Below, piece after piece: positions 1,431-56,655 of a stretch of 64,000 nucleotides of DNA. The stretch comes from Pycnopodia helianthoides. Its lineage: Eukaryota > Echinodermata > Asteroidea > Forcipulatida > Asteriidae. The notes under the pieces are model-generated. The model worked only from the letters and a program-made list of their open reading frames with translations. It did no database searches and was not told the DNA's origin. Position 1 is the first letter of the stretch; every line of letters starts with the position of its first letter. The stretch is taken from contig CM063246.1 of NCBI GenBank assembly GCA_032158295.1, positions 4,435,371 through 4,499,370 on the forward strand. The letters are read 5' to 3'. Both the position numbers and the translations under genes were made by a program.

Positions 1431-1614
1431 TTTTGGGTTGGAACAAAGGAATTTTGAAAAGAGCGGAACTTGAACCTGCGACCTCCGGATTAACAACCCG
1501 ACGCTCTACCAACTGAGGTCGCAGGTTCAAGTCCCGCTCCAGTCAATTTTTCTTTGTTCAACCCAAAATGATTTAGAATTTACCCAGTCAGTTTCCCTTG
1601 TGGTTTATTATTTC
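1431..1614. mobile_element. Foldback tRNA-derived element (family T1), solo copy with 14-bp TSD
   Basis: The left arm is a minus-strand copy of the T1 tail start and tRNA-like body (about 1456-1517, ending at the A-box part). It is fused directly to a plus-strand T-arm, acceptor end and long tail (1518-1614, ending GTGGTTTATTATTTC). Arms GAGCGG..CTTGAACCTGCGACCTC and GAGGTCGCAGGTTCAAGTC are complementary, so the transcript or single strand would form a hairpin. Exact 14-bp repeats flank it. The tRNA part is broken (no intact D-arm/acceptor pair) and cannot make a normal tRNA. The same layout at 6.15 and 17.7-19.6 kb shows this is a family trait. Confidence 0.85.
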
Positions 1615-2905: not shown

Positions 2906-3274
2906 CAGTTTTAAGGAGTTGGGCCAAGGGGGTCGTAGATGGAGAGTGATATTAACAGATGAACCCACGAAGGAAATCATTTCCACTTTACTCCATGTAA
3001 CCATTCTCAATACAAGCTTGCACCACTACCCAGGCACTACTGCACACATTTCCATCTGTGTGGGTTTTTTTCTGTTTTTTTTTTTTCCCTTCCCTCTCCT
3101 GCAGTGTGTCATAAATAACTGTGCGATATTTATAAACACAGGGAGCTGAGTTCACCCCTATTGGCCCTGATGAATGGAGACTGGGTTGACCTTGTGGACC
3201 TCCATCAGCAAGAGGCACACTCCCTGCACCTGGCTGGCACGTGCCAGTCTTGGCTGGCCCTGCTAGAGGGTTTC
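2906..3274. other. Non-coding stretch, nothing recognised
   Basis: Unique-looking sequence with one T-rich run near 3065-3090; no convincing gene or repeat. Confidence 0.4.
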
Positions 3275-3540
3275 AGACATTCTTAAAGGTGCAACCTCAC
3301 TAGTGGCCAGAAAATACACGGCTGGCCATTGTGTTGTGGGAGGTTTTAGACTTTCTTAAAGAGGCTGTTCCTCAGTAGTGGCCAGAAAATACATGGCAGG
3401 CCATTGTGTTGTGGGAGGTTTTAGACTTTCTTAAAGAGGCTTTTCCTCAGTAGTGGCCAGAAAATACATGGCAGGCCGTGGTGGGAGGTTCCAAACTTTC
3501 TTAAAAGAGGCAACCTCACTATTTGCCAGAAAATACTACC
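3275..3540 (+). repeat. Minisatellite, 75-bp unit, about 3.4 copies
   Basis: GTGGCCAGAAAATACA begins at 3303, 3378 and 3453, giving a 75-bp period, and a shortened fourth copy (TTGCCAGAAAATAC) follows about 69 bp later. Each unit also holds TTGTGTTGTGGGAGGTT and ACTTTCTTAAAGAGGC. No open frame is conserved between units. Confidence 0.85.
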
Positions 3541-5730: not shown

Positions 5731-6146
5731 AGGGAAGGATGGTAGAAAAAAAATCTGACAAAGGTTAGAACTGATTCCATTCTATTCCGTTACAAAGACA
5801 ATTAGTCCGTTCCAAAGACTTGCAACAGCCACAGGAAGGGACTCAGCAGTCATGTCTATGCATATGAACAGTTCATCCAAAGTGCCAATTACCCCCATTT
5901 TTGTTTAAATGTTAAAGTGCTCAAGAAGTTCTGTTTTGAATGTTGAAATTCTCCTTTTTGACGACAGTGAATTCCTTCTTTGCATTTACAATGTACTACT
6001 CTCCCTCAGTGCCTTGTCCCTGTTCCCTTTTCCCCGAAGTGCTGCCACAGTGATTTTAAAGACAAAGTAGAGGACTGGTAGTTTTTAACAGAAAGAAATT
6101 TGAATCAATCAGAAAGCTCACTCTGGTTATTATTCATATATCAATC
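5731..6146. other. Non-coding stretch, nothing recognised
   Basis: Unique-looking sequence without repeats I can pair. Confidence 0.4.
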
Positions 6147-6489
6147 AATAAACCACAAGGGAAACTGACGGGTAAATTTTTTATAATTTGGGGGTGAACA
6201 AAGAAAAATTTACTTGAACCTTACCTATGCGACCTCTGGATTACTCACCTCACCACCGAGCTAGCTATCTCAAGTTTCCTAAGTTGTAAACTTGGTGTGA
6301 TCCCTGGCTATGTGGCAGTTACAGGTTGAATGGCTTCTGACTGGCACCCAAAACCATGCCCAAACAAAGACATTGAAAAAATAGGGGAACCGCCAACATG
6401 TGGGCTAGATAGCTCTGTTGGTAGAGCGCCGGCACGTTAATCAGTGGGTCGCAGGTTCAAGTCCCGCTCTAGTTATAAAATTGTAATGA
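6147..6489. mobile_element. Foldback tRNA-derived element (family T1), diverged copy
   Basis: Left arm: minus-strand long tail (AATAAACCACAAGGGAAACT) followed by a decayed minus tRNA-like body (about 6211-6270). Then comes the T1 spacer in plus orientation (GTGTGATCCCTGGCTA..GAATGGCTTCTGAC) and a plus tRNA-like gene at 6403-6474. This is the same tail'-tRNA'-spacer-tRNA order as the centre of the 17.7-19.6 kb array. The plus tail is cut soon after the tRNA. TTATTATT occurs on both sides, too short to call a duplication. Confidence 0.8.
6403..6474 (+). tRNA. tRNA-like gene, family T1, one helix broken
   Basis: Seventy-two nucleotides from GGCTAGA to TCTAGTT form a seven-pair acceptor (with G-T pairs), and GCTC/GAGC forms the D-stem. 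The B-box GGTTCAAGTCC is intact. The anticodon region reads CGTTAATCAG and no longer pairs with CCGGC, so decoding is unlikely. The next T-run is weak, so it may not terminate cleanly. Confidence 0.5.
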
Positions 6490-17248: not shown

Positions 17249-17630
17249 TTTAAAAGCAAGGTATACATTTGGTAATTGTCAAAGACTAATCCTCACTTGG
17301 TGTATCCCAACATGTGCATAAAATAACAGACCTGTGAAAATTTTGGGCATGGAAGTTGCAAGAAAGCAATGAAAGAAAAAACACCCTTGTTGCATAGAAT
17401 TAGAATGGTGTTCTTTCAGATGCCAGAGAAAGGCTACATGCCTGAAGCCTCCCTCAGGCTTCAATTTTGGGGTGAAAAATTACCTCTTCCTCTAAAACTA
17501 CATTACTTCAAAGAAGGTTGTTTCTAACAATGTTTCATAATATCAACAGCTCTCCAGTGCTCTTTACCAAGTAAGTCTTTATGGTTATTCATTTTTGGGG
17601 TAATTACCAAAGGTATACCCTACCTTTAAA
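17249..17630. mobile_element. MITE of the TTTAAAGG group
   Basis: Left end TTTAAAAGCAAGGTATACAT, right end reverse complement TTTAAAGGTAGGGTATACCT, each followed by TTGGTAATT. Interior phrases match the 4.9 kb copy (CCTGTGAAAATTTTGGGC, ACACCCTTGTTGCATAG). It abuts the next MITE at a shared TTTAAAGG. Confidence 0.75.
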
Positions 17631-17687
17631 GGCCCTGTACACTATTGGTAAGATCGAAAAACACAATGTTCACAGATTCACACATAA
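17625..17687 (+). mobile_element. Left part of a MITE split by the tRNA array
   Basis: TTTAAAGGCCCTGTACACTA opens a MITE whose remainder lies at 19638-19917, beyond the array. The terminal sequence pairs with the right end (reverse complement TTAAAGGTATTGTACACTTT). Joining the two parts across one copy of the 14-bp repeat gives an element of about 340 bp, the usual length of the group. This dates the array insertion after the MITE. Confidence 0.75.
17674..17687. repeat. Left target-site duplication of the tRNA array
   Basis: AGATTCACACATAA occurs here and exactly again at 19624-19637. It lies within MITE sequence, so it is a duplication of the target, not part of the array. Confidence 0.85.
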
Positions 17688-17714
17688 TGATTTCGGGTTG
17701 AACAAAGAAAAATT

Positions 17715-17786
17715 GACTAGAGCGGGATTTGAACCAACGACCTCCGGTTTAACGTGCCGGCGCTCTACCAACTGAGCTATCTAGCC
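17715..17786 (-). tRNA. tRNA-like gene 1 of the array
   Basis: The 72-nt gene folds as a full cloverleaf. Acceptor GGCTAGA pairs with TCTAGTC (seven pairs, one G-T), the D-stem is GCTC/GAGC, and the anticodon stem is CCGGC/ACCGG with one mismatch next to the loop. The T-stem is GTTGG/CCCGC with one mismatch. Internal promoter boxes are intact: A-box TAGCTCAGTTGG and B-box GGTTCAAATCC. The body most resembles tRNA-Lys, but the anticodon position reads GTT (Asn) and residue 33 is C where tRNAs nearly always have U. A TTTTT terminator follows two bases after the 3' end. Pol III transcription is plausible; decoding is doubtful. Confidence 0.6.
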
Positions 17787-18030
17787 CTATGTTGGCGGTC
17801 TCCCTATTTTGTCAATATCTTTGTTCGGGGGTGCCTGTCAGAAGCCATTCAACCGCAAACTGCCGTGTAGCCAGGGATCACACCCAGGTAACGATACAAC
17901 CTGGGAAGCGGCAGACAGGGGATCACCTTAAGGGGATGCGACTTTTTATATCAGATATCAAATAATAAACCACAAGGGAAACTGACTTGGTATATTTTTT
18001 AAATGATTTCGGGTTGAACAAAGAAAAATT

Positions 18031-18102
18031 GACTAGAGCGGGATTTGAACCAACGACCTCCGGTTTAACGTGCCGGCGCTCTACCAACTGAGCTATCTAG
18101 CC
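18031..18102 (-). tRNA. tRNA-like gene 2 of the array
   Basis: Same sequence as gene 1 by eye, 316 bp further on, with the same downstream TTTTT. Confidence 0.6.
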
Positions 18103-18345
18103 CTATGTTGGCGGTCTCCCTATTTTGTCAATATCTTTGTTCGGGGTGCCTGTCAGAAGCCATTCAACCGCAAACTGCCGTGTAGCCAGGGATCACACCC
18201 AGGTAACGATACAACCTGGGAAGCGGCAGACAGGGGATCACCTTAAGGGGATGCGACTTTTTATATCAGATATCAAATAATAAACCACAAGGGAAACTGA
18301 CTTGGTATATTTTTTAAATGATTTCGGGTTGAACAAAGAAAAATT

Positions 18346-18417
18346 GACTAGAGCGGGATTTGAACCAACGACCTCCGGTTTAACGTGCCGGCGCTCTACC
18401 AACTGAGCTATCTAGCC
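18346..18417 (-). tRNA. tRNA-like gene 3 of the array, at the centre of symmetry
   Basis: Same sequence as gene 1, 315 bp from gene 2. It lacks its own leader: its 5' side runs straight into the leader of the opposite-strand gene 4, which makes the head-to-head junction. Confidence 0.6.
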
Positions 18418-18533
18418 AGGTTGTATCGTTACCTGGGTGTGATCCCTGGCTACACGGCAGTTTGCGGTTGAATGGCTTCTGACAGGCACCCCCGAACAAA
18501 GATATTGACAAAATAGGGAGACCGCCAACATAG
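18418..18533. other. Central spacer between divergent tRNA-like genes
   Basis: This is one plus-oriented leader (AGGTTGTATCGTTACCTGGG to ACCGCCAACATAG). It serves as loop of the giant inverted repeat and as shared upstream region of genes 3 and 4. Diverged versions stand upstream of the tRNA bodies at 6.29-6.40, 39.0 and 43.36 kb. That is unusual for a SINE, whose tRNA head normally forms the 5' end. Confidence 0.75.
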
Positions 18534-18605
18534 GGCTAGATAGCTCAGTTGGTAGAGCGCCGGCACGTTAAACCGGAGGTCGTTGGTTCAAATCCCGCTC
18601 TAGTC
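18534..18605 (+). tRNA. tRNA-like gene 4 of the array
   Basis: Plus-strand copy of the same gene. Terminator TTTTT at 18608-18612. Anticodon position GTT at residues 34-36, C33. Confidence 0.6.
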
Positions 18606-18849
18606 AATTTTTCTTTGTTCAACCCGAAATCATTTAAAAAATATACCAAGTCAGTTTCCCTTGTGGTTTATTATTTGATATCTGATATAAAAAGTCGCAT
18701 CCCCTTAAGGTGATCCCCTGTCTGCCGCTTCCCAGGTTGTATCGTTACCTGGGTGTGATCCCTGGCTACACGGCAGTTTGCGGTTGAATGGCTTCTGACA
18801 GGCACCCCCGAACAAAGATATTGACAAAATAGGGAGACCGCCAACATAG

Positions 18850-18921
18850 GGCTAGATAGCTCAGTTGGTAGAGCGCCGGCACGTTAAACCGGAGGTCGTT
18901 GGTTCAAATCCCGCTCTAGTC
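18850..18921 (+). tRNA. tRNA-like gene 5 of the array
   Basis: Starts 316 bp after gene 4 and is the same by eye, with the same leader and terminator. Confidence 0.6.
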
Positions 18922-19165
18922 AATTTTTCTTTGTTCAACCCGAAATCATTTAAAAAATATACCAAGTCAGTTTCCCTTGTGGTTTATTATTTGATATCTG
19001 ATATAAAAAGTCGCATCCCCTTAAGGTGATCCCCTGTCTGCCGCTTCCCAGGTTGTATCGTTACCTGGGTGTGATCCCTGGCTACACGGCAGTTTGCGGT
19101 TGAATGGCTTCTGACAGGCACCCCCGAACAAAGATATTGACAAAATAGGGAGACCGCCAACATAG

Positions 19166-19237
19166 GGCTAGATAGCTCAGTTGGTAGAGCGCCGGCACGT
19201 TAAACCGGAGGTCGTTGGTTCAAATCCCGCTCTAGTC
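19166..19237 (+). tRNA. tRNA-like gene 6 of the array
   Basis: Starts 316 bp after gene 5 and is the same by eye, with leader and terminator. Confidence 0.6.
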
Positions 19238-19481
19238 AATTTTTCTTTGTTCAACCCGAAATCATTTAAAAAATATACCAAGTCAGTTTCCCTTGTGGTT
19301 TATTATTTGATATCTGATATAAAAAGTCGCATCCCCTTAAGGTGATCCCCTGTCTGCCGCTTCCCAGGTTGTATCGTTACCTGGGTGTGATCCCTGGCTA
19401 CACGGCAGTTTGCGGTTGAATGGCTTCTGACAGGCACCCCCGAACAAAGATATTGACAAAATAGGGAGACCGCCAACATAG

Positions 19482-19553
19482 GGCTAGATAGCTCAGTTGG
19501 TAGAGCGCCGGCACGTTAAACCGGAGGTCGTTGGTTCAAATCCCGCTCTAGTC
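19482..19553 (+). tRNA. tRNA-like gene 7 of the array, last unit
   Basis: Starts 316 bp after gene 6. Its tail ends early at GTTTATTATT, immediately before the right target duplication. Confidence 0.6.
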
Positions 19554-19623
19554 AATTTTTCTTTGTTCAACCCGAAATCATTTAAAAAATATACCAAGTC
19601 AGTTTCCCTTGTGGTTTATTATT

Positions 19624-19637
19624 AGATTCACACATAA
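19624..19637. repeat. Right target-site duplication of the tRNA array
   Basis: Exact repeat of the 14 bases at 17674-17687. Confidence 0.85.
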
Positions 19638-30204: not shown

Positions 30205-30620
30205 ACCTTTAGGAGATAGCCTGTTAGTCTGATAAATAAAACAAGTAATGTACATGTATGGGAGCACTTCTAGGTCCTTTTGAAATCACGGCTTCTGTCA
30301 GTCATTTTGAAAACATAGGATTACAATACAGGGCTTCAAACAGGCAGATGGAGCCTAAGCCAGAGCCTAAGCCTAAGCCTAAGCCTAAGCCTAAGCCTAA
30401 GCCAGAGCCTAAGCCTAAGCCAGAGCCTAAGCCTAAGCAGAGCCTAAGCCTAAGCCAGAGCCTAAGCCTCAGCCAGAGCCTAAGCCAGAGCCTAAGCCTA
30501 AGCCAGAGCCCAAGCCTTGGCTTTCAACAAGAGCTAGTAAGACCATAATAGTTTATACACAAAAGTCTGCATGAGCTTTCATAGGAACAACTACTTCATC
30601 AGATCGTTGGTGTTTGAGAG
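30205..30620. repeat. Repeat interrupted by a CCTAAG-bearing MITE
   Basis: The left part (GATAGCCTGTTAGTCTGATA..GAGCACTTCTA, to 30271) and the right part (GTAAGACCATAATAG..AAAGTCTGCATGAG, from 30538) together match the uninterrupted repeat at about 53.72-53.88 kb (CCCTGTTAGACTGATAGATA..AAGATTGCATGAG). The pair defines the inserted element between them. Confidence 0.65.
30272..30537. mobile_element. MITE with amplified CCTAAG core
   Basis: The left end GGTCCTTTTGAAATCACGGC resembles the left end of the 48.6 kb MITE (GGCCCTTTTCAAATTCACGG). CTA stands on both sides. About 165 bp of its interior (30349-30515) is a mixed array of CCTAAG hexamers and AGAGCC units, apparently grown from an original AGAGCCTAAGCC phrase. 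The frame through it (Pro-Lys/Glu repeats) is an artefact. Confidence 0.65.
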
Positions 30621-37261: not shown

Positions 37262-37525
37262 AGAAATAATACCTGGCTTAGCAGCTTAGCAGCATAGACA
37301 AGGGGGTTTATATTTAATGGAACGACTAAACCTGCTTAACTGAACAGATTTGTAAGAAATAGTACCTGGCTTAGCAGCATAGACAAGGAGGTTTATATTT
37401 AATGGAACGACTAAACCTGCTTAACTGAACAGATTTGTAAGAAATAGTACCTGGCTTAGCAGCATAGACAAGGAGGTATATATTTAATGGAACGAGTAAA
37501 CCTGCTTAACCGAACAGATTTGCAA
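37262..37525 (+). repeat. Minisatellite, about 85-bp unit, three copies
   Basis: ACCTGGCTTAGCAGCATAGA..AACCTGCTTAAC..GAACAGATTTG recurs three times, ATAGACAAG starting near 37295, 37379 and 37464. Copies two and three differ by a few bases; the first has an extra AGCAGCTT. Recent local duplication. Confidence 0.85.
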
Positions 37526-38437
37526 GGCAGACTGTGCAATAAAATGAATGTGACCCTAGGTAACATAATTTTGGCGAGTGGGGGAGGCAATATTTTACAT
37601 TATTTGTTTTCTGCCATTATTCATATTGTGCGCTATTTTATTTATCCGGGGATTTTGGTAGGTCCACAGCATTTGCCTTTTAAACATTTTATTTTTCCAC
37701 TCTATTGTAAAGTAATTTCCAATGTTTTTTATTGTAGCATTCTTGTCATTTGGCCTGTTGGCCATGAATTGAATGAGAAAAACCAATATAACTCTCTCAC
37801 TTGTTAGTTTACAATTTACTAAATACATCTATGGCATTCGGATAAATCTTTTCATAAGACCATTTGCATTAAACCAATAAGCTGCACAACCAAATTTAAC
37901 CGATGTACAAAGACCAGGTAATACTAAACCCCCTTCGATCTTTACCATTGTAAATAAACCGCCGACGAAAGAAATTCAAGAATACCTCCTCTTACATTTG
38001 CTTCAGTCTATTTAGTGTCATATTGCAGCGATAGTACTGATTATTTGTATGGTGTTGAGCAATCAGTCAAAAGGCAGCTTCAAAATACATGTATTCAAAT
38101 AGCAATCCGCGCTAATGTTAAAAAAAGAAGCTCAGCAGCCAGACCTCCGACAACGTGTTCAGTTCACTAACGTAAGCACGCGTACATGTCCAGGCTTTAT
38201 GTTTACTAGTGTGTACCGACTGTACTAACTGCGGATCTGGCTCGCTGATGCGGCGATTGCGTGATCGCTAGGTGGTGGAATGTTTGTCTGGCATACAGGC
38301 TTTCTGAGCAATAGTGACGTCATTGGTCATTGGTGCGGAGTGCTATTATAAACGTTCATTGTTGTTTGGTGGTTTTTAATTGCTGTCTCTAAAGATGAGC
38401 ACCTACACTAAATTAGACAACTTATCCATTCACAGAG

Positions 38438-38790
38438 ACAGAAACAACTTTCATTCTCTTTCTTTCAAGAGATTGCGGGGATAAGGAATATCATTTGCAG
38501 TTCACCCAACATCAATGTGTGTTTAGCACTGTATACTCAGTACTTTCCCCGAGTCCTGTGAACAAATCCACAGGCATATTACTCTAGAACTGCTAAAATA
38601 TACAAATTGAACTGCCTCTAGCTATCGGCCAATCTCGGTGGTCTAGTGGTAAGACATTTGCTCTAGAATAGCAAAGGTTGTAGGTTCAAATCCCATCAGA
38701 GTAATATGCCTGGGGATTTTCTTGCCGGGATTTGGGAAAGTATTGAGTATGCAGTGCTTAATACACATTGGTGTATGGGTAAAAGCATAC
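38438..38790. mobile_element. Foldback copy of tRNA-derived family T2
   Basis: The left arm is the minus-strand T2 body (TGTGTGTTTAGCACTGTATA..CTCAGTACTTTCCCCGAGTC..CCACAGGCATATTACTCTAG). The right arm is a plus-strand tRNA-like head (about 38633-38705) plus body (AGTAATATGCCTGGGGATTT..AAGTATTGAGTATGCAGTGC). About 35 bp separates them. The fold repeats the head-to-head theme seen in family T1 with an unrelated tRNA. Confidence 0.7.
38633..38705 (+). tRNA. tRNA-like head of SINE family T2
   Basis: TCTCGGTGGTCTAGTGGTAA carries an A-box, and AGGTTCAAATCCCAT a B-box. The acceptor arms (TCTCGGT with AGAGT region) pair only partly. This is a SINE head, not a functional tRNA. Confidence 0.45.
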
Positions 38791-38919: not shown

Positions 38920-39450
38920 TTTTGGGTTGGGTAAAAAAAAAAAAAAATTGGAGTGGGGTTTGAGCTTGTGACCTTCGAATTAACGTGCCGGCTGAGCCAT
39001 CTAGACCTAATCTTGGCAGTCTCCTTATTTTGTCATATCTTTGTTCGGGGTGCCAATCAGAAGCCATTCAACCCATAACAAATTTCTTCCTTTTTTTTAC
39101 AGAGACGTCAAGAGATGGCCGAGATAAAGAATATTATTCACAGATCACCCACGTACACATCGATGTGTGTTTAGCACTGTATACTCAGTACTTTCTCCGG
39201 GATCACACCCAAATTTACGAGACAACATGGGAAGGAGAGGGATCGACTTAAAGGGATGCTACTTTTTACTTCAAATATCAAGCTATAAACCACAAGGAAA
39301 ACTGACTGGGTAAATTTTAAATAATTTTAGGTTGAACAAAGACAAATTTACAAGAGTAGGATTTGAACCCGCGACCTCTGGATTAACTGGTGCTAAACCA
39401 ACTGAGCCATCTTGCCCTAATGTTGCCAATCTCCCTACTTCAATTTTCTT
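38920..39450 (-). mobile_element. Old tandem dimer of family T1, interrupted by a T2 fragment
   Basis: Two minus-strand units in tandem: tRNA-like bodies at about 38950-39006 (missing the D-loop part) and 39349-39416. They are joined by the same leader and tail found in the 17.7-19.6 kb array (CTTTGTTCGGGGTGCCAATC.., TATAAACCACAAGGAAAACT). About 120 bp of T2 body (39080-39200) replaces part of the leader. Divergence shows that tandem units are an old habit of this family. Confidence 0.75.
39349..39416 (-). tRNA. tRNA-like pseudogene, family T1
   Basis: B-box region (reverse complement GGGTTCAAATCC) and A-box region (TGGCTCAGTTGGT) persist. The anticodon arm has lost bases and the acceptor ends no longer match fully. 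Confidence 0.5.
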
Positions 39451-42075: not shown

Positions 42076-43265
42076 GCACTCTAATGTTTTGTTTGTCTGT
42101 TTCTATTTACACATTTACACAACCTGAATATAAGTTTACATCATTTTGGAGAGATTTTATTAACACATGAATTAAATGCTCTCCATAAACCACAGGCCAT
42201 GCAGCCATAAACAGACAATAGTGCAGTGCCAATTTGTAAGAGGTTTACTCAATGGCTGTACATAGCTGCATACCAATTTTTCATGTACCCAGCGCTCAGT
42301 AATGAAACATGTATAATTATGTAATTGAACGAAAGAGCTGACGAACGTTGCATTTTTTTAAGGTGTAAACCGTTAGCAATAGCCTATCATGACTTTATCG
42401 TTTAAGAGGAAAGTCAAGTGAAATTTTAAAAATGGCAACTTACATAAACAAATTATGCAAGATAATTTGTTCGAGTTTCACTTTCTAAAAATAATAAAAT
42501 GCCTTCTCTTCGCTAAATCTCTTGGGCCAAATGTTAGAATTAATTTCCCTGAATGCGAAGCAATAAAATAACAATACCATAATCTTCGTCAGGAATTTTG
42601 TTTTTCTTCAATTGCAGATTGCAAATCAATGAATTCTTGCCAAAAATATATTATATTCTTTGTTCTTGCAATTTTCTTTTTGATGTATTTGACGAAGATT
42701 TTTTTAGGAAACAGCCTGTGTATCAATTAAATAGAACGATAAATAGACAGATACAAAATCTTTTGTCCAACCAGAGGGAAACTTGTGTGGCTTTCTGAAA
42801 ATATTTTAACAGGCACGATTTTTGGCCCTTGGAAAAAAAGCGGGAACATTTTGATTGAGTACAAGGGCTGACCTACATGTGGTACAGGCTTTAATCGGCT
42901 TTTCCAGGCTGTCTTATAACAATTTTGCTGATTTGTCGGAGGGTCAAAGAAATTGGAAATTAGACTTAATTAGGAAGAATAAATGTCTGAATAAAATACA
43001 CAGGACTCTACAAGAATAAATCAAACAAATTATTTATATCTGATCATTCCCAACCCCTACATCCAGAATTTGTCACGAACAGTAGAGATACAATAATTTG
43101 TTTTAATTTGTTTTAAATTTTGCTTTCGGAAACAAACAATTACGCAAACTCCCATCCACTTTTCCTAAACTCTGCCAGCTTAAATTTGTTTAAAACTGCA
43201 TTTGGTTGCTCATGTTTTTTTGTGATACAATTGATTATGTTAGGCCCATAGGCTATTTTTAATTT
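42076..43265. other. Non-coding stretch with one repeat
   Basis: Apart from the 42.82-42.95 kb copy of the 29.93 kb repeat, nothing is recognised. Confidence 0.4.
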
Positions 43266-43412
43266 GGGGTTCAACAAGAAAAAAATTGACTAGATCGGAA
43301 CTTCAACCTGTGACCTCCGGAATAGCGTGCTGGCATTCTACCAACTGAGCCATCTAGCCCTAATGTTGGCAGTCTCCCTATTTTGTCAATATCTTTGTTC
43401 GGGGATGCATTT
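43266..43412 (-). mobile_element. Solo minus-strand copy of family T1
   Basis: Short tail (reverse complement TTCTTGTTGAACCCCAAATT), tRNA-like body 43288-43359, then the leader (TAATGTTGGCAGTCTCCCTA..TTGTTCGGGGATGC), which is truncated. No second arm is present. The tail ends at the same place as in the left arms of the 1.43 and 17.7 kb copies. Confidence 0.8.
43288..43359 (-). tRNA. tRNA-like gene, family T1, mildly diverged
   Basis: Seventy-two nucleotides from GGCTAGA to TCTAGTC keep the acceptor, D-stem and A-box (TGGCTCAGTTGG). The B-box is altered to GGTTGAAGTTC, and the anticodon loop differs (CACGCTATT), so transcription is less likely than in the array copies. Confidence 0.5.
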
Positions 43413-46214: not shown

Positions 46215-46540
46215 CATTTAAGACAAACCGGTGCATCTAAGACAAACCGGTGCATCTAAAGACAAACCGGCGCATCTAAGACAAACCGACGCATCTAAGA
46301 CAAACCATTGCATCTAAGACAAACCAGCACATCTAAGACAAACCGGCGCATCTAAGACAAACCGGCGCATCTAAGACAAACCGGCGCATCTAAGACAAAC
46401 CGACGCATCTAAGACAAACCAACGCATCTAAGACAAACCAGCACATCTAAGACAAACCGGCACATCTAAGACAAACCATTGCATCAAAGACAAACCAGGG
46501 TATCTAAGAAAACTGGGGCATCTAAGACAAACCAGGGAAT
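46215..46540 (+). repeat. Minisatellite, 19-bp unit, about 17 copies
   Basis: Unit ACAAACCGGCGCATCTAAG with variant centres. The order of variants (GGC, GAC, ATT, AGC, GGC then GGC, GAC, AAC, AGC, GGC) nearly repeats, suggesting growth by multi-unit duplication. The ends are degenerate (AAACTGGGGCATC). Lies in the intron upstream of the 45.6 kb exon if that gene extends here. Confidence 0.9.
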
Positions 46541-50107: not shown

Positions 50108-50501
50108 TTAAAGGAACATTACAGAATTGGTAAGAAAAAAACTTGTAAAATGTACTTTTTGATCACAAATTTACATAAAACTTACACGGTCTAATGATGA
50201 TGAGAGTAGAAAACATCCCTTGAAATATTTCTGTCTGAAATGCCATATTTGATGAGAAATGAATAAACTAATTTTCCGATTGGAGTTTATTGCTCAGTGA
50301 GCGTTTTATTCATTTGTTGAATCTATATGATTTCATGCAAATGTGTAATCGGTTTTTCACTATTTTCTCGTGACCCAGATGGCCGTTCGATCTCAAATTT
50401 CTACAGGTTTGTCAGTTTATGTTTATGGTGGATTACATAAAGTGCTTACACTGCCAGCAACTGTTTTGTTAGCAAAAACCAATTCTGTAATGTTCCTTTA
50501 A
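50108..50501. mobile_element. MITE with TTTAAAGGAACATTACAG ends
   Basis: TTTAAAGGAACATTACAGAA on the left and (reverse complement) TTAAAGGAACATTACAGAAT on the right, both followed by TTGGT. It is the inverted relative of the 29.1 kb copy and similar across its whole 390 bp by eye. Confidence 0.85.
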
Positions 50502-51512: not shown

Positions 51513-51605
51513 CAGATGATCATATTTAATAGATGTTAATTTTTGCATCGGGATAAAATATAATAATATATGGTTTCTGCACATTACAAAATCCACGGTC
51601 GTATC

Positions 51606-51674
51606 ACTCAGTGGGATTCGAACCCATGACCTTTGCCATGCTAGAGCAGATGTCTTACCACTAGACCACCGAGC
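51606..51674 (-). tRNA. tRNA-like head, family T2, isolated
   Basis: On the minus strand: GCTCGGTGGTCTAGTGGTAA (A-box) and GGGTTCGAATCCC (perfect B-box), with GCTCGGT/ACTGAGT acceptor pairing. The T-stem is short and the anticodon arm does not fold cleanly. The usual T2 body is absent, so this is a head fragment or a tRNA pseudogene. Confidence 0.5.
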
Positions 51675-52385
51675 TAGCTTGGTGGCTAGAGGCAGTTCCA
51701 ATCCTATATCCTACAGATGATCATGTTAGAATAATGTGTGACCATGATGGTCAAACCATCATGGTATAATGAAAATTCCCCTTGACTTTCTCATGCTTGG
51801 CTAATTACAAGTTTGTTTTAAACAACATCTTTGTAAAATTTTCACCCATTTTCATTTTTATTTTTTAAATACTTTTGTTTTAATTATTCAACTTAAAATT
51901 ACACGACTGTAGTTAATTGTCTTTTTAAATGTACCAGTAGGTAGTAGGAAAAAACAACAACAACAAAGGACTAAAAAATCAATAAATACACAGTTTATGA
52001 TGGCATAATGTAATAAACTTATACTGTACCTGCAGGAAAATGATAACGGATTTATACAAAAACTGTGTCCTCATGAATGTTTGCCCTTGAACTCTTAAAA
52101 CACGAACTTTCAAAACAGAAAAACTAGACTTTCTCACACTTGGGTGATTTCAGCGTTATTTGACTCCCCAATTGTTGTATATGATTGAAAAACCCTTTTT
52201 TTCTGCCCAACAAAGAAACTGCTGGAATCTCACATTTGGGATAATGTCAGCACGGAGCCCTGGGGGACCAATAAGCCCCCAAATTTACAAAGGCCATGTT
52301 ACCAAGGCTGTTGCTAAGATAAGCCTATACGATTTAATGCAAGTTGACGTCATGATCGAGCCAATATCGTTGCCATAGACTTCAA
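51675..52385. other. Non-coding stretch, nothing recognised
   Basis: Includes GATGGTCAAACCATC, a small perfect palindrome near 51745-51763. No gene. Confidence 0.35.
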
Positions 52386-56338: not shown

Positions 56339-56389
56339 CTATAAAATTCTTGCTGTACCCGCAGCTAAAATATAGGATTCTAGCTACCA

Positions 56390-56655
56390 GGCAATCTAGG
56401 TGGTCTAGTTGATAAGACATCTGCTCTAGAATTGGCAAAGGTCGTGGGTTCGAATCCAATCTGAGTAATATGCCTGTGGATTTTTTGTCCACAGGACTCG
56501 GGGGGGGAAAGTACTGAGTATAATACAAATGCTTTGCACACATCGGTGAAAGGGCAAAACCAAATAACAACAACAAAATAGTCAGAACATGACAAAAATT
56601 GTACACCGGTGTAAGGGTAAAACCAAATAATCCCAACAAAATAGTCAGAACATGA
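56390..56655 (+). mobile_element. SINE family T2 copy with a 63-bp tail duplication
   Basis: Head AGGTGGTCTAGTTGATAAGA (A-box) and GTGGGTTCGAATCCA (B-box), then body TGAGTAATATGCCTGTGGAT..AAAGTACTGAGTATA..CACATCGGTG. The phrase AAAACCAAATAAC..CAACAAAATAGTCAGAACATGA occurs twice, 63 bp apart (56557 and 56620). Confidence 0.75.

Follow-up and report, generated by a model that had tools for sequence, protein, structure and literature searches.

A tandem array of seven tRNA-Asn(GTT)-like genes lies at positions 17674 to 19637 of the window, by which we mean the whole 64,000-nucleotide stretch of Pycnopodia helianthoides DNA that was analysed. ARAGORN and Rfam each called the seven genes between 17714 and 19554, three on the minus strand and four on the plus strand, and Rfam scored every one of them at 54.3 bits. 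The array interrupts a host MITE and is composed of the following parts, in which unit positions are those of a 316-bp repeat.

17624..17687, plus strand: left part of the host MITE (outer limit approximate), aligned to relatives at 29.4 and 50.2 kb
17674..17687, plus strand: left copy of the 14-bp target duplication AGATTCACACATAA, exact; two occurrences in the window, a single copy in the MITE relatives
17688..17786, minus strand: outer partial unit of the left arm, unit 99-1, with the no-tail end; tRNA-like gene at 17714-17786
17787..18102, minus strand: full unit of 316 bp, 100% identical to the reference unit; tRNA-like gene at 18030-18102
18103..18417, minus strand: unit of 315 bp, one base absent; tRNA-like gene at 18345-18417
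18416..18417: head-to-head junction, at which unit 1 (left) and unit 199 (right) overlap by 2 bp, CC
18418..18533, plus strand: centre of 116 bp, in which the right arm begins with a 5'-truncated unit (unit 201-316)
18534..18849, plus strand: full unit of 316 bp; tRNA-like gene at 18534-18606
18850..19165, plus strand: full unit of 316 bp, the reference unit; tRNA-like gene at 18850-18922
19166..19481, plus strand: full unit of 316 bp; tRNA-like gene at 19166-19238
19482..19623, plus strand: outer partial unit of the right arm, unit 1-142, with the tail end; tRNA-like gene at 19482-19554
19624..19637, plus strand: right copy of the 14-bp target duplication AGATTCACACATAA
19638..19918, plus strand: right part of the host MITE (outer limit approximate), aligned to MITE relatives

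The sequence-only reading had described three minus-strand and four plus-strand units of 315-316 bp arranged as an inverted repeat around a 116-bp centre, and both the gene calls and the unit alignment bore this out: the arms 18143-18417 and 18534-18808 are separated by 116 nt, and the one-base loss at 18103-18417 is the sole difference among the five full units compared. The number of units at the locus is read from a single assembly. It had also proposed that an exact 14-bp repeat brackets the array, with the halves of a MITE on either side. We found two exact matches to AGATTCACACATAA in the window, 17674-17687 and 19624-19637, and none on the opposite strand. When the flanks are joined, they align across the junction with MITE relatives at 29437-29330 (75% identity) and 50160-50267 (72%), both of which have the target once. 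The single target in these paralogues supports its further claim of one insertion event into the MITE with a 14-bp duplication. No ORF of at least 110 aa overlaps the array, and the RT and GIY-YIG frame of an autonomous Penelope-like element (PLE) is absent from it. Viral contigs gave no hit.

Each unit carries an A-box TAGCTCAGTTGG, a B-box GGTTCAAATCC and a T5 pol III stop shortly 3' of the tRNA, so that the terminators noted earlier after every gene were confirmed. The count of seven genes stood, while their length of 72 nt did not, since Rfam gives 73 nt for each and ARAGORN 75 for one. Likewise, "intact" applies to the A- and B-boxes but not to the tRNA itself. The anticodon loop is ACGTTAA, with C33 in place of U33, and there is a C-A mismatch at 31-39 and one mismatch in the T-stem. 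A functional tRNA-Asn would have U33 and a sound anticodon stem, neither of which was found, and the seven units are probably not working tRNA genes. Among 46 family cores, 42 have a run of at least four T within unit 74-91 and 28 were called tRNA-Asn, indicating that tRNA counts in such genomes will be inflated. The tRNA stems held six two-sided standard changes among 966 cells, and five of the six lay in the anticodon stem; so small a number does not demonstrate selection on these stems.

Four other copies of the family were found in the window.

1431..1614, plus strand: older head-to-head copy; an exact 14-bp duplication of its own, TTATGTTATTTTAA, lies at 1417-1430 and 1615-1628
6127..6473, plus strand: older head-to-head copy (limits approximate), right end near unit 71, ends about 160/71
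38936..39416, minus strand: older partial dimer, split by another repeat
43262..43408, minus strand: older family fragment

In the copy at 6127-6473 no 11-bp duplication was found, and its right end lies outside both of the end classes described below. Its centre, with a right arm starting from about unit 185 and a diverged left arm, may resemble that of the array at 17674-19637.

Genome-wide, a 20-nt diagnostic of the unit has 2,853 exact copies in 479 Mb. We parsed 58 loci, the array and 57 others, which included two samples, 38 top-scoring loci and 20 taken by position. The outer 3' ends fell almost entirely into two narrow classes, with 69 of 71 within unit 88-113 (22 ends) or unit 137-157 (47 ends), while the starts of the 45 direct-only copies were scattered over unit 1 to 294. 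At 38 loci outside AT repeats, exact flanking repeats of 11-16 bp were present in 17, compared with 0 of 1,406 mismatched flank pairs used as a control; these 17 include an ATT repeat (L059) and an A/T-only sequence (L048). In the remaining 21 of the 38 no duplication of at least 11 bp was found. L046 and L052, which look like one duplicated locus, were each counted. L039 and L086 have AT runs in their 3' flanks but escaped the (AT)n criterion.

Inverted arms were present in 13 of the 58 loci, and the other 45 were direct-only. All 11 inverted copies that were resolved and lay outside AT repeats had one arm with each end type (11 of 12 if L039 is counted, which has two tail ends, 147/156), and at the observed end frequencies the chance of 11 in 11 is about 1e-4. 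These 11 copies comprise ten of the 58 loci and the window copy at 1431-1614; left out were L035, whose left arm leaves the contig (92/156), L062, whose ends are unclear, L039, whose left flank is masked, and the window copy at 6127-6473. The 11 head-to-head centres that we listed represented 11 different pairs of unit positions, with overlaps of 1-21 bp at five of them, and because no pair recurred, the inversion appears to arise anew at each integration. The array had earlier been suggested to move, or to grow after moving, as a foldback. This found no support: the centres differ, and direct-only arrays were common among the 38 top-scoring loci, with 2 to 7 tRNA units, and 8 in L042, which looks like an array rearranged locally.

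Units differed at a median of 1 site within an array versus 13 between arrays, the latter figure being widened by subfamilies, and many arrays have units identical to those of other arrays. Copying of each array from a single multi-unit RNA would produce this difference but, given the subfamilies and the shared units, so could youth by itself. The near-identity of units noted at first sight does support recency; homogenisation after insertion is possible but not needed. The private/shared count excluded L042. L031 has two alleles, both of which are found in other arrays, and the same holds for L042. This argues weakly against a rolling circle of a single monomer at these two loci.

For comparison with known systems we used excerpts of published accounts. 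As described there, PLEs have head-to-head inverted pseudo-LTRs, an optional short tail on one inverted pseudo-LTR, and duplications of 8-10 bp or none (PMC3846280), and a PLE protein cleaves both strands and extends them, with an internal start and a preference for AT-rich DNA (PMC11167929). The 5' truncation, two end classes, duplications and one-of-each arms of the family correspond to this pseudo-LTR-plus-tail anatomy. Like the Penelope/Poseidon-type PLEs of these accounts (PMC3846280, PMC11167929), the family has tandem or partial-tandem repeats, an inverted head-to-head copy at the 5' side, a tail on one arm, short variable duplications and AT-rich targets; the tandem or partial-tandem pseudo-LTR units, tailed head-to-head arm and variable short duplications expected of a non-autonomous PLE derivative were all found. 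Unlike PLEs, the unit lacks a hammerhead and any RT or GIY-YIG frame but contains a tRNA-like core, its duplications measure 11-16 bp rather than 8-10 bp or none, and the tail, optional in the excerpted PLE description (PMC3846280), followed the one-of-each rule in all 11 resolved copies. With metazoan non-LTR retrozymes, as excerpted, it shares tandem units that are non-coding and roughly 300 bp long, a GC content below 50%, dimers to multimers and duplications longer than 4 bp (PMC7229834, PMC7761336). The defining feature of retrozymes, however, is a type I hammerhead, which the unit lacks, and they are stated in these excerpts to have no motif from which an autonomous partner could be deduced, whereas a candidate PLE partner is in hand here. 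Among the titles and abstract beginnings of open-licence PMC articles we recognised no description of tRNA-bearing PLEs or of this repeat.

The candidate is a young intact PLE in the same genome, PLE-A, which has a 910-aa frame with RT and GIY-YIG as well as a hammerhead whose core occurs in 587 exact copies. An AT run follows the hammerhead in nine of ten PLE-A loci examined, and 20 of the 38 top-scoring unit loci have an (AT)n setting. Furthermore, PLE-A hammerhead sequence was found in the flanks of 10 of these 38 loci, nine times within 135 bp of the array, against an expectation of 0.09, which is somewhat too low because it counts exact copies only, and the ten matches include partial or diverged ones. 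PLE-A is the candidate enzyme for the AT-repeat insertions. Of the 20 loci sampled by position, however, none qualified as (AT)n under our criterion and one (L086) had a PLE-A hammerhead flank, so that the closeness may reflect a shared target and youth alone. At L101, PLE-A itself has left three 256-bp hammerhead units in tandem, 5'-truncated and set in (AT)n. Descent of the unit from PLE-A found no support, as two full-length PLE-A copies showed no significant similarity to it; eight further PLE-A flanks gave one match, a tail piece of 47 bp in L077, which we read as a separate truncated insertion. The two proteins closest to PLE-A match it at 88% over its whole length and at 98% over 81%, and lower matches come from Asterias amurensis (52% over 65%) and Apostichopus japonicus (53% over 72%).

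Taken with this anatomy, we think it likely that the unit is a ribozyme-less, tRNA-bearing, non-autonomous retroelement mobilised by a PLE and that the array represents one insertion from multimeric RNA, probably copied in from an RNA of many units. We infer the identity of the enzyme and the role of the tRNA, as well as the RNA intermediate and the priming on both strands. The template would be a non-coding head-to-tail multimer of the 316-nt unit with its tRNA-like core. PLE enzymes would nick the two strands of the MITE about 14 bp apart, and reverse transcription would be primed on both, starting near unit 99 for the no-tail end or near unit 142-147 for the tail end. Both cDNAs would then extend towards the 5' ends of their RNAs and be joined head to head through short homology or a few extra bases, while a single arm would give a 5'-truncated direct array. 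In the excerpted literature the integration mode of PLEs (PMC11167929) and the enzyme that moves animal retrozymes (PMC7229834, PMC7761336) are open questions. Within this single genome an intact young PLE, hammerhead units of that PLE in tandem, and the tRNA-bearing unit, which has no ribozyme, share insertion anatomy. The one-of-each tail rule leaves a sharp footprint in mirror-image copies, and models of two-strand priming must account for it.

tRNA-derived SINEs take their A and B boxes from a tRNA and reach high copy numbers. The family resembles them in both respects, and its variable 5' truncation, 11-16-bp duplications and overlaps at five of 11 centres would also suit a tandem pol III-transcribed SINE whose multimeric copies were inserted by LINE machinery through twin priming with 5' inversion. 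We nevertheless consider this unlikely. In contrast to such SINEs, the family has multimeric units, two 3' end classes and an internal pol III stop right after the tRNA (a T run in 42 of 46 cores), where a pol III RNA would end before the unit tail, and no poly(A) was seen at the 3' ends inspected. In LINE twin priming the inverted arm has no fixed start place, whereas here it begins in one of two narrow classes. The initial view that this is not a standard SINE arrangement is supported.

Far less probable still is a DNA transposon of the foldback or Mutator type whose inverted arms consist of tandem repeats, like Tetris and Galileo (PMC4079207, PMC3573991). Mirror-image arms within a duplication fit it, but the termini of the two arms differ where such a transposon would have matching ones, copies are 5'-truncated, the duplication length varies, and most loci are direct-only with ragged starts, the listed centres also differing. 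The tRNA-derived pol III promoter within a repeated terminal segment recalls the Helenus TRIMs, which occur in animals and have LTRs of up to 323 bp with tRNA-like sequence (PMC10886601, in part). That a TRIM of this kind turned into tandem arrays is nonetheless very improbable, since the excerpt gives LTR-type integration with 4-5-bp duplications (4 bp in animals) and describes no inverted arms, while this family has 11-16-bp duplications, inverted arms and 5' truncation. Local growth after insertion by unequal exchange, or mis-assembly of a short insertion, would agree with the near-identical units, the single assembly and the rearranged appearance of L042. It too is hardly to be expected, as the anatomy is repeated at many loci with differing unit numbers, centres and duplications.

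Returning to the PLE-mobilised retroelement, it is doubtful, though conceivable, that the tRNA-like core replaces the hammerhead and sets the RNA ends in a multimeric transcript through host tRNA-processing enzymes or as part of an unrecognised self-cleaving fold; if true, the unit would be a ribozyme-free retrozyme. No hammerhead or other ribozyme was among 12 Rfam matches to the unit at E up to 10, and the hammerhead motif CTGANGA was absent from both strands of the reference unit. Rfam alone is insufficient here, having also missed the PLE-A hammerhead. The stability of the whole-unit RNA was unremarkable for either strand (z -0.94 and -1.16). A candidate stem GAACAAAGA/TCTTTGTTC would enclose the tRNA, each of its pairs being able to form in 37-43 of 46 rows; RNAalifold favoured other pairs, and two-sided standard changes amounted to 1 in 414 cells, an almost complete lack of covariation that speaks against a processing role. 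Cuts by tRNA enzymes are expected near unit 1 and 73, not 99, which also counts against it. Such processing would give RNAs whose 3' ends lie near unit 99 and whose 5' ends lie near unit 100. Two observations hint in its favour. The two subfamily consensuses differed at 3 of 136 sites in unit 273-316 plus 1-92, just before the no-tail end, versus 27 of 182 elsewhere, with boundaries picked after viewing the alignment. Direct-only copies started at unit 93-122 in 10 of 45 cases versus 4.3 expected, in a start range chosen by eye and with one duplicated locus in the count.

We found that the insertion at 17674-19637 in the window carries seven tRNA-like genes, three on the minus and four on the plus strand, as the sequence-only reading had described, and that all seven resemble tRNA-Asn(GTT). 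Its claim that the units are almost identical also held, with one missing base as the sole difference among five full units. Furthermore, the exact 14-bp repeat said to bracket the array was located as AGATTCACACATAA at its two edges and nowhere else in the window. The two halves of a host MITE were confirmed on either side: when the flanks are joined with a single target copy, they align to two related MITEs of the window, one at 29.4 and one at 50.2 kb; this is a paralogous empty site, as opposed to an allelic one. Units were numbered from the first tRNA base, with 18850-19165 as reference.

The array and two older head-to-head copies in the window (ranges after minus or plus are unit positions)
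17674-19637, from left end: duplication, then minus 99-1, minus 316-1, minus 315-base unit
17674-19637, right of centre: plus 199-316, then three times plus 1-316, plus 1-142, duplication
1431-1614: older head-to-head copy with its own exact 14-bp duplication, TTATGTTATTTTAA
about 6.1 kb: older head-to-head copy, right end near unit 71

The unit was searched for in the genome that the window comes from, which has 479 Mb in 742 contigs. Scoring 40 of 3,507 candidates gave at least 180 matches. Among the matches listed, 37 array loci were taken, a choice that favours young tandem arrays, and combined with the window array into a set of 38. A further 20 loci were added by position only: the first 21 on contig 1 apart from L047, which was already in the set. 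This gave 58 parsed loci. The exact 20-base sequence of unit 120-139, within the tail, occurred 2,853 times in the genome, compared with 0 for its reversed control.

Among 71 outer 3' ends, 47 lay at unit 137-157 (tail) and 22 at unit 88-113 (no-tail); the other two both belong to locus L062. The no-tail end is near unit 99 in subfamily A and after CAACCCCATAC in subfamily B. Start positions of the 45 direct-only copies ranged from unit 1 to 294 and were mildly over-represented at unit 93-122, an interval picked by eye (10 of 45 compared with 4.3 expected, p = 0.008). The 5' side is truncated to a variable extent, and the 3' ends fall into narrow classes. By the criterion used, which overlooked L039 and L086, (AT)n targets were found at 20 of the 38 top loci compared with none of the 20 sampled by position. 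In 17 of the 38 non-AT loci both edges carried an exact 11-16 bp flanking repeat; two of these, L059, whose repeat is ATT, and L048, with a repeat of only A and T, are weak cases taken singly. The other 21 had no flanking repeat of that length. In 1,406 control flank pairs from mixed loci, 0 had an 11-16 bp repeat and two reached 10.

Inverted arms were present in 13 of the 58 loci. In all ten inverted loci with ends resolved and outside AT repeats, one arm was of the tail and one of the no-tail class, and the window copy at 1431-1614 (left arm ending near unit 96, right arm near 143-145, by eye) brings this to 11 of 11, with a chance of about 1e-4 at the observed end frequencies. Not in this tally are the 6.1-kb window copy, L035, which runs off its contig, L039 (147/156), which has a masked flank, and L062, whose ends are unclear; including L039, it is 11 of 12. 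The array had been proposed to move, or to grow after moving, as a foldback, and this was not supported: the 11 head-to-head centres listed all differ, and inversion is therefore best read as arising at integration, without transport by a moving foldback element.

Centres of head-to-head loci (unit positions)
Array in the window: 1/199
L044: 67/277, 21-bp overlap
L059: 277/70, 18-bp overlap
L064: 263/69, 5-bp overlap
L061: 189/111, 4 extra bases
L063: 37 unassigned bases
L079: 125 unassigned bases

Four older relatives of the family lie in the window, at about 1.4, 6.1, 39 and 43 kb. The 6.1-kb copy does not fit cleanly to the tail/no-tail pattern of inverted copies, which slightly lowered our confidence in a Penelope-like element (PLE)-type reading. 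The search for flanking repeats near its edges gave none above 9 bp. At its centre the right arm begins near unit 185 and the left arm is diverged, and this centre may be similar to that of the array. Other tandem repeats in the window are at 46215-46533 (19-bp x 16.8), 30352-30517 (AGCCTA repeats), 37284-37526 (85-bp x 2.9) and 3269-3536 (75-bp x 3.7).

The median difference between units of the same array is 1 site (102 pairs), compared with 13 sites (3,219 pairs) between units of different arrays, a value widened by the subfamilies, and identical units are common to many different arrays. This is consistent with an array being a copy of one multi-unit RNA, although youth alone could yield the same pattern. 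Locus L031 holds two alleles, both also present in other arrays, so the simplest template, at least there, is something other than one monomer circle. L042 (C9:19842500-19847100), with units 80-99% identical to the reference and some about 300 bp long, is an older or rearranged array.

According to PMC3846280, PLEs carry two direct pseudo-LTRs next to one in inverted orientation, may have a 31-bp tail, and make either duplications of 8-10 bp or no duplication. In PMC11167929, a PLE protein is reported to cut both strands and extend them, to begin within the RNA and to favour AT-rich sites. Animal retrozymes, according to PMC7229834 and PMC7761336, are hammerhead units repeated in tandem, each a few hundred bp long, and their autonomous partner was not deducible. 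Helenus carries a tRNA within its LTRs, and its animal duplications are 4 bp (PMC10886601). Titles and beginnings of abstracts from literature searches yielded no recognised tRNA-bearing PLE-type tandem element. We consider it likely that the array family behaves as a non-autonomous element mobilised by PLEs. The unit itself was classed neither as a PLE, since it has no frame and no significant similarity to PLE-A, a candidate autonomous family of this genome, nor as a retrozyme, since it has no hammerhead.

PLE-A emerged from a GIY-YIG search of the genome (150 of 378 candidates scored), in which most of the matches listed have one identical score; all ten loci examined were PLE-A. Two copies have an open 910-aa frame without stops, and Pfam on one frame found RVT_1 and GIY-YIG. 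The 3' region contains CTGACGAAGGTCCGGTTTGGATCGAAAGC (587 exact genomic copies), which by our own reading fits the minimal hammerhead of PLEs. The pattern was present in 10 of 10 PLE-A loci, followed by an AT run in nine. Rfam gives no score to this hammerhead, so the lack of an Rfam hammerhead match in the unit counts for little; that CTGANGA was not found in the unit is stronger evidence of hammerhead absence. The PLE-A hammerhead sequence also occurred in the examined flanks of 10 of 38 unit loci, at most 135 bp away in nine (0.09 expected, from exact copies alone), and in those of 1 of the 20 position-sampled loci (L086). Given this single locus and the lack of significant similarity between PLE-A and the unit, a different PLE may have moved the older copies.

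At C4:11235700-11237400 (L101), three 256-bp PLE-A units stand in tandem, 5'-truncated and ending in an AT repeat, each with the minimal hammerhead. This is a retrozyme-like array alongside the tRNA-like form, with an autonomous relative present in the genome. At C5:11333100-11334100 (L102), a near-palindrome consists of PLE-A hammerhead ends placed tail-to-tail, with no long AT run between. At C13:15033300-15036300 (L032), a stop-free frame runs from the last tRNA-like unit through an AT repeat into a truncated PLE-A frame; the AT repeat most likely opened it by chance.

The A- and B-boxes reported as intact are present, as is the terminator, a T5 run shortly after the tRNA, which makes a short pol III transcript plausible. 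In the anticodon loop C33 replaces U33, and the anticodon stem has a C-A mismatch. Among the 46 family cores aligned (the reference and 45 distinct others), ARAGORN called tRNA-Asn in 28, tRNA-His in 1 and none in 17. The core is best regarded as the tRNA-like part of a repeat. The tRNA may be a pol III promoter retained by inheritance that plays no role in mobility; alternatively, it may substitute for the hammerhead in generating RNA ends. The subfamily consensuses, which differ at 3 of 136 sites in one stretch compared with 27 of 182 in the other (Fisher p = 7e-5, boundaries picked post hoc with the alignment already seen), could hint at such a substitution, and the near absence of covariation counts against it. 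A second tRNA-bearing repeat with mirror arms lies at 38501-38783, where a tRNA-Ser(AGA)-like gene at 38633-38703 stands between inverted arms that are about 85 bp long and 80% identical; its relatives in the window are at 51588-51698, 56379-56573 and 39157-39195.
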